Below, piece by piece: positions 24,118 through 28,216 of a DNA stretch of 64,000 nt. Position 1 is the first letter of the stretch. Every line of letters begins with the position of its first letter. The translations under genes were made by a program, and so were the position numbers. This DNA comes from Nemania diffusa (lineage: Eukaryota; Ascomycota; Sordariomycetes; Xylariales; Xylariaceae): NCBI GenBank assembly GCA_038501195.1, contig JBBPUQ010000002.1, forward strand, positions 558,001 to 622,000, written 5' to 3'. The notes beneath the pieces were generated by a model. That model was not told the origin of the DNA. It was given only the letters and a program-made list of their open reading frames with translations, and searched no databases.

Positions 24118-24418
24118 CTAATAGGGCTGGGTTGTTTGAATGAGTGATGGCTCCGCTACGTCACTCAATCGGTAATATCCAATGAGTCTAGTGAGAGAGC
24201 GAGACCTTCGGTTATTTCCTACGTCATTGAACACAGCAAAGCATCCCTTTATATAATGTTATTCCACTCGAACTTCAGATTAGACAAATATTTGAACTTA
24301 CCTGCGGTGATGCAAGTACCAACTGTCGTATACGTGTTAGTCAGATTGTAACATCAATGAGGTGCATTTGAGAGAGACCTACCTATTCCAAGCCCTCCTG
24401 AGGTAAGACCTCCTATCA

Positions 24419-24454
24419 CGGGTCCAACCAGGGGTCCAACCAGGGGTCCAACCC
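24419..24454 (-). repeat. triplicated short unit in GTPase tail
   Basis: The unit GGGGTCCAACCA is repeated about three times in tandem. Read on the minus strand it encodes the V-G-P-L repeats in the C-terminal tail of the MITE-split GTPase. Confidence 0.7.
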
Positions 24455-25672
24455 ATTGGTGCTTGACCTTCTCAGTAGTATCTAGCTTAGATTGTGTCTC
24501 GAGTCTCAAGTTTTGTAGCTCCAATCTTAGCTTCTGTATTTCACTCTCTCTTTCATTCAGATATTCCTCTCGTTCGCTTAAATGACGATCACGATATTCG
24601 CGCTCTCTACGGCGGTACTCTTCCTCCTTTTCTCCTAGTGTTTTCTTCCATTGCTTTTGCATGGCCGAAACTTGCTCAGTAAACCGTTGCAACTGTTTTT
24701 GGTGGATCCCCAGGAGGGGTAGTCGCATTGCGTCTATTGCCTGATTGCTTTCTTTGAGCATCCTGGGAATGTCCGAGTCTTGTTCCAGTTGTGCATGTAC
24801 TGGTTCATGTTCTAGTGTTCTGTTCTTCCTGTAGGCAATTCCTAAACCTTCCAGTTGCTTTTCTAAAGATTGTTGAGATTTCTTTAAGTCCTGTTGGAGC
24901 AATTTCCCTGCCGAGGTCTCATTGAGGGTTAAATTTAAATCCACCATCTCGTGTTGGATTTCTAGCGTGATTTGTGTATCCTTCCATGCGTCAAATATCC
25001 TGGTTAGGATCTTCTTTGCAGATGTACGCCTCTGGGATAGTGTCTGGCACTCGCTGTGACTAATAATCTGCGAACCCTTTTCGAGCATGTCATGTACATA
25101 CGTGTTTCGAAGTTGTTGCTGTCTGCTGCACTGTTTAGTATACTCGATTCCGGAATGGTCAGAAGACCACATAGTAGTCACTACTGCAACGTTCCCAAAC
25201 GCTTCTTCTCCACAAAGGGCCTTCATCATCTCTAGATTACGTCTAGTTGAGCGCCCGATTCTGGTATTAGAAATAGAATGAAGGTAGAGAACACCGTTGA
25301 TCGAGACGTTGTTGGCGTAGGATGCTGAGAGATAGTGTACCACTGTTGTGAGAGTCTCAACATCTTCTCGATTCGTGTCCTTTATGAATAAATTAGCAAC
25401 AGTCGTTAGTAAATAATTCTATATTCAAGCAAGGATCAGATTGTTGACTACTTACATCAAAGCCGGGTGTATCAATAAGATAAACATCACGACTCTGTAG
25501 CTCACTACGAAATATTGCCACTGAGTTTGTGCCTGCTCGAGTTAAGTTTCATGCTGTTAGTTCGCCGTTGAACTCTGTATAGAGTTCTATAAACTCACAA
25601 GAAGCTAGATCATGTCCAATCTGCGCGTCTTGCCCAGTGCAGTCAGCGATGAAAGAACTTTTGCCTGACCCT

Positions 25673-26156
25673 GTCATCCCCAGGGTTGTGATTTAGTACC
25701 TTAGTAATTAGGACTAATTTAGTATTACTAGATTAGTACTTACTTTAGTACTAATTTTTAAAGTACTAAGCTAGTATTAGTACTATTTCGAAAATACTAA
25801 TATTAATTTAGTAATACTAAGTTAGTATTTAGTATAATACTAAGTACTAAAATATTCACTTATATAAGCTATAAACGTTTGTATATAAGAATAATTACCT
25901 AGGTAAATCAAGTGGTCTGTGCGCAGTTGTGGCTTTATAGCTGTGGCTTTATAATGCAAGCAGTTAAAATAGTGGCTAAGCAGTAAATTTTAGTACTTAA
26001 TATTAGTATTAGTATTTCTTAGTATTTTAGTATTAGTCTTAGTATTAAGTAATACTAAACTAAGTTAGTCTTAGTACTAGGTAGTACTAAACTAAGTTAG
26101 TATTAGTACTGACTAATACTAAATTAGTATTACTAAATCACAACCCTGGTCATCCC
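25673..26156. mobile_element. hAT-like MITE with 8-bp target duplication
   Basis: The element spans 25681-26148 (468 bp). Its ends are perfect 18-bp inverted repeats: CAGGGTTGTGATTTAGTA at the left and its reverse complement at the right. It is flanked by the direct repeat GTCATCCC (25673-25680 and 26149-26156). Eight-base duplications and CAGGG-type ends are typical of the hAT superfamily. The interior is AT-rich, full of TAGTAT/TAGTAC subterminal motifs on both sides, and has no coding frame, so it is non-autonomous. Removing one target copy and the element restores the GTPase G1 reading frame across the site. Confidence 0.93.
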
Positions 26157-26199: not shown

Positions 26200-26864
26200 C
26201 AAAACCAACCCATGATCATTAGAAAAACAGAACCCGGCCTGTAACCGAATCCAGTCAGCAAAAGGAGGGAAATGTGTGCTGGGCCGGCGGGGGGGGGGGG
26301 GGGGGGGGGGGTTGGCGTACTTCGGCCTCTGAGCCCCCACGAACGCCAAGAAGTTCGCAGCCTCAATTGCGAAAATGCTAGACATTTCATTACTTTCACT
26401 TGTGAAATTACAGCGTGTATTGGATTGAAGACATATAGGAGCGAGTGCAACAAGAGCTCTAATGTGCCTTAAGGGCTCGGGCGGAGTTTAATTAGCAATC
26501 AAGTAATAATAGCTCATGGCTAGCCGCCACGTCAGATAAGATGAAGTTGATGCCTAAAAAAGGCTGAAACCAATAATATGCAACAGCAACCAAGCCACAA
26601 TTGCTACCTATTTAAGGAGAATACGACCGAATATCCCCAACCCCGCACAGGTCTACGTATAACTTCTTTCCTACTACATTTCACGCAATGCCGTTGCTCT
26701 ATTAAGTATTTCTAGGGGATGATTGGAAAACGCACGAATAGGCTCCCACTTGAATATTCCCGAATATTATCTCTATTGTAACCTATTTGTCGATTCTGGA
26801 CTTATCGCCAACGCTAGGAGCTAAACTATTAACCACGCACGGCAGGGTGCAGTTTCAGACGAAA
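26200..26864. promoter_or_regulatory. shared region between head-to-head GTPase genes
   Basis: This interval separates the two divergent GTPase copies. It contains an uninterrupted run of 23 G (26289-26311). A minus-strand frame through the G run gives only a poly-Pro artefact. The promoter of the intact copy must lie in the right part. Confidence 0.45.
26289..26311 (+). repeat. G23 homopolymer
   Basis: Twenty-three consecutive G bases are present on the plus strand. The tract could form G-quadruplex DNA, and its exact length is prone to sequencing error. Confidence 0.9.
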
Positions 26865-28216
26865 ATGATATCAGGATCACCCGCAATATATTTTAATGGG
26901 GAGACTCCCAAGTAAGTGGTGCTCTGTCTACCTATATACTTACTGTTATGAGACTTACTTCGTTAGTGCGGATGACATTGTGATCGCTTTGATGGGCATG
27001 ACCGGCTCAGGCAAAAGCTCTCTGATCAGCCTTTGCACTGACCAAGCAGTTGAAATTGGCCACGGTCTCCAATCTTGTAGGTCCTGATTCCAATGATGCA
27101 CCCTGAAGAGATCGAATTTGATGTTAATGAAAGACACATGTAGGCACGCAGAACGTACAAAGCTATTCCTTTTGTCATCCAAAATTCCGTTCCGGTCGTA
27201 TTTACCTCGTCGATACCCCGGGCTTCGACGATAGCAACCGGAGCGATACGGAGACTCTCCGAACACTAGCCGCGTGGCTGACGGCAACCTATAGGAGCGG
27301 CATCAAACTCTCTGGCATCATATATGTGCACCGAATCGACCAAACAAGAATGCAAGGGTCTGCAGTGAAGAATGCTCATCTTTTTAAGCAGCTATGTGGC
27401 GATAATGCATTAAAAAAGGTAGTTTTAGTCACAACAATGTGGGACAAAACGCCAGGTGATCTTGCGGAGAGCCGAGAAAAACAAATGAAGGAAACCGATA
27501 AATATTGGGGCAGAATGATCGCTCGGGTAAGATAATCCAAAGTCCACTGTTTGACTCTGAGAGCTTATTAAAGTTTGAATAGGGAAGCCAAGTCATGCGT
27601 CACGACAATACACGCAAGTCCGCATTCGCACTAATCGAGAGCTTTATAAAAGTTGACTCAAAGATTGTTCTCGGGATCCAAAGCGAAATGGTTGATGACC
27701 TCAAGAGCCTGGAAAGTACTAACATAGGGAATGCGATCAAAGAAATGCTAGTCCAACAGAATGCACAATATAAGAAGGAGCTTCAAAGTATCGTTGCCGA
27801 GCTTAAGGAAGCTATGATGAGCAAAGAAGAAGCCCAAGATTTATTGGAGGCTAGGCTTGATGTAGAAAAGAACATTCAGCAAGTGAGTATTAGCTTCCGT
27901 TTAACGCAACTCGCAAATGTGGATGTTTGTATACCTGGTTCGCATGTTTGCCCCCATTACTACATTGTCAACTTACGTCAGTCCCCAAGGCAAAATACTA
28001 ATAGCCGTCATTGGACAGGTGGAGCTCAATCTCAAGCAACTGCTCGAGACAAGAATAAAAGAACTACAAGAGTCTCAACGTCCGAAAGAACAACCACTAC
28101 CTGGACCCCGCGGCCAAACCTCTCCTAGCATAGCGGAACCCCGACGACTACCAGGGTTGACCCCAGAGATAGTTGCTCGATTACATGCCAGCAAGCGCAA
28201 AAAAAAGTGGTTTTAG
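26865..28216 (+). CDS. AIG1/GIMAP-like P-loop GTPase, intact copy, 5 exons
   Basis: Exons are 26865-26911, 26967-27076, 27144-27526, 27583-27882 and 28019-28216; every join keeps frame, giving 345 aa. G1 is GMTGSGKS (26-33), G3 is DTPG (76-79) and the G4-region motif is TTMWD (about 151). After the G domain comes a charged alpha-helical region likely to be a coiled coil (KKELQSIVAELKEAM, LLEARLDVEKN). A short Pro-rich linker and a basic C terminus (KRKKKW) follow. The organisation matches the broken paralogue at 24118-26199, but the Gly-rich tail is replaced by the basic end. In animals and plants AIG1-type GTPases act in immune and membrane processes; a fungal role is inference. The exon 4/5 intron (136 bp) is the least certain join. 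Confidence 0.8.

Follow-up and report, generated by a model that had tools for sequence, protein, structure and literature searches.

A non-autonomous hAT-type element in the P-loop of a GTPase gene of Nemania diffusa

We analysed a 64,000-nucleotide stretch of the genome of the ascomycete Nemania diffusa (assembly GCA_038501195.1, contig JBBPUQ010000002.1, positions 558,001–622,000 of the forward strand; C2:558001-622000 in the genome coordinates used here), referred to below as the window. The P-loop codons of a GTPase gene in this window are interrupted by a 468-bp, AT-rich and non-coding element. Taken as a whole, the locus is best explained by a young copy of a family of non-autonomous miniature inverted-repeat transposable elements (MITEs) of the hAT type that inserted there, a reading in which we place high confidence. 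The event is of an ordinary kind for transposons, and the family is a new one of a well-known kind.

The element and the gene it interrupts

The element (25681–26148; Table 1) is bounded by inverted ends, CAGGGTTGTGATTTAGTA, that are perfect over 18 nt, or 19 nt counting one flanking C/G. It is flanked on both sides by the 8-bp target site duplication (TSD) GTCATCCC, exactly as an earlier reading of the DNA without database searches (hereafter the sequence-only reading) had described. A scan of the window for perfect inverted ends of at least 12 nt, 60–3000 bp apart and flanked by an identical 8-bp direct repeat, returned this pair only, and the end pattern gave two matches at up to three mismatches, against 0.01 expected. 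Inside the element, the hexamers TTAGTA/TACTAA occur 29 times (mean 5.0, s.d. 1.9 and maximum 11 in 1000 dinucleotide shuffles), in two subterminal arms separated by a middle part, between element positions 166 and 309, in which none starts. These arrays are probably binding sites of a transposase zinc-finger domain. Single-strand folding of the element beats that of all 100 shuffled sequences (z = -8.5).

On the minus strand, which carries the gene, exon 3 begins at 26155 and the element enters 7 bases in, splitting the Thr codon of the P-loop motif GMTGSGKS. Past the element this strand reads GMTGSGKSSFIADCTGQDAQIGHDLAS, and removal of the insert restores the motif, which bears out both the restored codons and the P-loop position given by the sequence-only reading. 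A detail absent from that reading is that the coding sequence upstream is interrupted: judged against Xylaria proteins, two short introns lie there, and the intron borders of exons 1–3 are of the usual GT–AG kind. The open piece at 24354–25343 (minus strand) has 32 homologues at E <= 0.001, with identities of 28–67%, and 22 of the 25 named ones are from Xylaria or Nemania. The motif GxTGSGK[ST] is uninterrupted in 23 of the 32. Of the other nine, seven are unnamed proteins and two, P0015 and P0029, have models from which this region is missing. The N-terminal sequence seen in relatives (MSSILEIEAANFLAFVGAQRPKPDSVFLLVMGMTGSGKSS in P0006-like proteins, for instance) is present in the window in pieces.

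Read through from the start of exon 3, the interrupted gene encodes MTRVVI and then stops. On the gene strand the three frames of the element hold 15, 20 and 23 stop codons, and with the duplication it adds 468 + 8 = 476 bases. Because of the early stop, the stops in all three frames and an added length not divisible by three, the insertion very likely abolished GTPase function, as far as this can be judged from the sequence. A recent date is supported, since the element departs from both of its closest copies at just 2 of 468 positions, the TSD copies are identical and the rest of the gene appears open. Identity of the window copy to these two closest copies is 97.9% and 97.6%, and its end branch in the family tree measures 0.0043. 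The only stop flagged in the gene pieces that match the Xylaria protein P0001, a TGA ending the open frame at 24354, is read as lying inside the next intron. Inactivation and a fairly recent insertion, both proposed by the sequence-only reading, are thus retained at these strengths. The locus is a likely natural knockout of a GTPase family member in one species, and a clear example of a gene probably lost to a MITE, in a fungus in which six of the seven hAT dimerisation matches found contain stop codons.

Copies of the family and the hAT assignment

The genome searched comprises 55.6 Mb in 16 contigs. Searched with the element, it gave 92 matching pieces, 14 of them full-length (positions 1–468) at at least 93% identity, the window copy included; the element is one of about twenty copies, and the lack of other copies that the sequence-only reading named as speaking against it is not observed. 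Besides the window copy, 20 other loci were examined, 21 in all. Both ends are present in 19 of them, each with an exact 8-bp TSD of its own; twelve of these copies are 468 bp long, two are 467 bp and five are 361–458 bp. The two loci left out of this count have either decayed ends (L035, where GTTTTATT flanks both sides by eye) or one end only (L037). The inverted ends are perfect over 18 nt in 14 of the 19 copies, window included, and over 15 nt in three; the remaining two have a base change close to the tip, and their perfect ends cover only 2 and 0 nt. Neither flank of the window element has a second copy that could represent an empty site in the same genome, at the sensitivity of this search.

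The family ends are either CAGGGTTGTGATTTAGTA or CAGGGTTGAAATTTAGTA. Both ends carry GTGA in nine copies and GAAA in ten, with no mixed copy among the 19. A concerted change of both ends was considered and rejected: the best tree built without the ends needs a single change (branch support 71/96; seen in 70% of bootstrap trees), and shared ancestry is therefore enough to explain the matching subtypes. Relative to the majority sequence, C-to-T changes reach 0.118 per site at CA and 0.097 at CT, about eight and seven times the reverse change (0.014), with an excess of about three- to fourfold at CC and CG (0.045, 0.053). CA and TG are together scarce (23, against a mean of 46.1 and s.d. of 5.2 in shuffles). 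Decay of the family by repeat-induced mutation (RIP) is likely, although the label is not certain, with CT nearly as affected as CA.

The family is short and non-coding, with several copies of similar length that carry terminal inverted repeats (TIRs) and TSDs, as is usual for MITEs. The marks of hAT elements are 8-bp duplications and short inverted ends, with a TIR range of 5–27 bp (PMC3517528); here all 19 TSDs are 8 bp and the TIR length falls within that range. Further evidence comes from a sister MITE in the same genome, 512 bp long, with six copies at 97–100% identity to the query copy. It begins with CAGGGTTG, an 8-nt tip common to both families, as are the hexamers and the 8-bp TSD. 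Over its last ~160 bp, at one end, the sister is 72% identical to the element; after base 8 the tips diverge (TGATTTAGTA or AAATTTAGTA in the 468-bp family, GAAATTAGTT in the sister).

The two ends of the sister also cap two long AT-rich elements, one of 7107 bp at C1:896918-904024 (L060/L038) with TTTTAGCT on both sides, and one of 15,925 bp at C2:1797421-1813345 (L086, L041) with CGTTAGGC on both sides. Both contain matches to the hAT dimerisation domain PF05699 (80.8 and 45.9 bits, respectively) with internal stop codons, and both look dead. Positions 1–217 and 357–512 of the sister match the ends of the 7.1-kb element at 80% and 89%, and within 200 bp of its two termini the latter carries 14 and 12 of the hexamers. 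From these matches, the sister is most readily taken for a hAT element with an internal deletion, and the 468-bp family for its near relative. The assignment of the 468-bp family to hAT is backed by this related MITE, whose ends cap long elements with hAT-transposase remains, and agrees with the sequence-only reading of a non-autonomous hAT-type element. The transposase found between such ends is decayed and belongs to the sister, with which the 468-bp family shares the tip, the hexamers and one end at 72%.

Among the closest known systems is Mar of Drosophila willistoni, a hAT MITE with 11-bp ends CAG(G/A)GGTAGGC and the Buster target nnnTAnnn (PMC3517528). Like Mar, the family is short, AT-rich and non-coding, with CAG-initial ends, 8-bp duplications and a hAT assignment, and some Mar copies lie inside genes, as the window copy does. 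Unlike Mar, it has 18-bp ends and TTAGTA arrays, with a central TA in only 1 of 19 TSDs. The arrays resemble the subterminal repeats of Hermes, which are bound by BED zinc fingers (PMC10368747), in being copies of a short motif in both orientations inside hAT ends; here the motif is TTAGTA/TACTAA, with 29 copies in two arms, and the sites are putative. Fusarium poae, likened here by description and not by sequence, is another fungus whose genome holds hAT-like elements (2.5–4.2 kb) and a short MITE (140 bp, 712 copies), and its repeat-induced mutation has been treated (PMC4994206). No title on a hAT MITE of Xylaria was found among open-licence papers, from which we claim no absence from print.

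Target choice, transposase source and alternatives

The two MITE families differ in the sites they occupy. A central TA is present in the TSD of all eight sister-group insertions (the two long elements, read by eye, and six MITE copies, of which one has a single mismatch in its TSD) and in 1 of 19 of the 468-bp family (Fisher p = 4e-6). Because of this mismatch, a transposase other than that of the sister probably moved the 468-bp family. The pattern nTnnnnAn is linked to the Ac family of hAT elements. It is the target pattern of Hermes (PMC10368747), and of the 19 TSDs here eight have T at position 2 and six have A at position 7. The pattern nnnTAnnn is in turn the target of the Buster family (PMC3517528), which the 468-bp family, at 1 of 19, does not follow. 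The paired MITE families provide a naturally occurring contrast in how related hAT lineages choose their targets.

An autonomous parent, which the sequence-only reading had proposed to find by its ends, was sought with the TIR pattern at up to two mismatches (50 matches in the whole genome), with PF05699 (seven matches) and by following single ends into their flanks. Single ends at C6:828954 and C8:115245 lead into stretches of 2–19% G+C. A purine/pyrimidine comparison, allowing for C-to-T decay, gave 81–86% against shuffled means of 81–83% (maxima up to 86%) and did not discriminate. A hAT element at C1:434321-438278 (L039:3422-7379) was rejected as parent, its ends CAGCGCTGAACACAGGTAAA differing from those of the family. 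An open hAT-like gene at C7:1274493-1276177 had no convincing ends within the 9 kb examined; it is possibly an intact or domesticated transposase.

Could the 468-bp family be a diverged deletion derivative, moved by the now-decayed transposase of the 7.1-kb lineage? The shared tip, the hexamer arrays and the 72% match at one end favour such an origin, as does the sister, which itself resembles a deletion derivative of that element. Set against this are the different target preference and the divergence of the ends beyond base 8. The genome also has a second decayed hAT lineage (L042-L044, at C4:656000, C4:725500 and C6:3469500), whose matched pieces share 36–67% identity with the first; its ends were looked for and not found, and as a source it is a candidate neither favoured nor discounted. 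We consider the 7.1-kb lineage an unlikely source. Tentatively, and with some doubt about the whole, target choice may have shifted through a change within a hAT transposase lineage, with end recognition remaining similar. The insertion in the window would then be a recent product, perhaps still variable, of the lineage behind the 468-bp family, and the enzyme of that lineage would be present now or would have been until lately. The insertion would also have disrupted the single close copy that this genome yielded of a GTPase conserved across many Xylaria species.

For the window locus itself, a hAT transposase supplied in trans would bind the 18-bp inverted repeats and the two hexamer arrays, and the element would enter through an 8-bp staggered cut at GTCATCCC, in the P-loop codons at the start of the third GTPase exon. 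Several points weigh against this account. No autonomous element with the family's own ends was found in the genome, and the difference in target choice tells against a simple parent. That relatives lack the insert is seen only in the proteins of other species. By itself, the 329-aa piece of exon 5 has no Pfam match, and the identity of the gene therefore rests on the homologues, a P-loop GTPase family of Xylariaceae, which carry PF01926 and in many cases also PF04548, and on the motifs GxTGSGK[ST] and DTPG, found in the matching exons of the window gene. Finally, splicing could remove part of the element. It might even be a new, introner-like intron in a gene that still yields a working protein: TACTAA resembles the fungal branch point, the arms are rich in it, and the element sits 7 bases from a splice acceptor. 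We think this very improbable in view of the stop soon after the junction, the stops in all frames and the 476 added bases, and the hAT-type duplications account for the structure without splicing. Equally little credit is due to an old insertion, or to a gene already dead beforehand. No direct evidence for either was found, the close relatives of the gene being proteins from other species only; the P0001-matched pieces are open within exons at 63–82% identity, the TSD copies are identical and the element is nearly identical to its nearest copies. A young MITE insertion remains the preferred explanation.

Gene pieces, neighbouring gene and further observations

The pieces of the interrupted gene are listed in Table 1; its last exon was not located in the window. 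Exon 6 reads as in the relatives.

Table 1. Features of the element, the interrupted GTPase gene and its neighbour (window positions)
Feature	Positions	Strand	Remarks
Non-autonomous element (MITE)	25681–26148	+	GC 26%; two further full-length copies at 98% identity, more at lower
Left terminal inverted repeat, CAGGGTTGTGATTTAGTA	25681–25698	+	
Right terminal inverted repeat	26131–26148	-	Perfect complement of left
Left TSD copy, GTCATCCC	25673–25680		
Right TSD copy, GTCATCCC	26149–26156		
Left arm of hexamers TTAGTA/TACTAA	25693–25850		15 of 29
Right arm of hexamers TTAGTA/TACTAA	25990–26136		14 of 29
GTPase exon 1, MSSIFAIEAANFLAFVGAQRP	26321–26385	-	Relatives such as P0004: MSSILEIEAANFLAFVGAQRP
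GTPase exon 2, PGSVFLMIM	26210–26238	-	Many relatives PDSVFLLVM; below matchable length in P0001 search
GTPase exon 3, first 7 bases	26149–26155	-	Upstream of element on gene strand
GTPase exon 3, rest with P-loop, GMTGSGKSSFIADCTGQDAQIGHDLAS	25599–25680	-	First 8 bases are second TSD copy; 82% to P0001
GTPase exon 4, TNSVAIFRSELQSRDVYLIDTPGFD	25456–25532	-	70% to P0001; exon end placed by hand
GTPase exon 5, rest of G domain and coiled coil	24383–25379	-	Open; 67% and 63% to P0001; ends placed by hand
GTPase exon 6 (short), VGTCITAG	24302–24322	-	Placed by hand
Neighbouring GTPase paralogue, G-domain part	26968–27484	+	50% and 39% to P0001; no disruption in pieces read

Eleven matches to P0001 were found in the genome, four at the interrupted gene (82, 70, 67 and 63%) and seven at 23–50%. 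At only 39–50%, the neighbour on the plus strand must therefore be a distant paralogue rather than a duplicate that escaped when the other copy was broken; the sequence-only reading, right about the probable inactivation, had described it as a neighbour that stayed intact. Its 50% piece has one flagged TGA, which by eye lies just beyond an intron border.

Further observations concern the hAT elements of the genome. The element at C1:434321-438278 is 3958 bp long, with ends identical over 20 nt and the TSD TCGACATG; it lies ~2.7 kb from a MITE copy, and its dimerisation match contains two TAG codons. The gene at C7:1274493-1276177 (L040:2494-4178) has ~50% G+C and open pieces of 308, 148 and 182 aa, the last of which alone gives the Pfam match. 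Stretches of several kb with ~2–10% G+C occur in L061, L062 and parts of L041 and L043, an extreme decay that is perhaps repeat-induced. In the window, the first intron of the interrupted GTPase gene contains more than 20 consecutive G (C when read along the gene) at 26289–26312.
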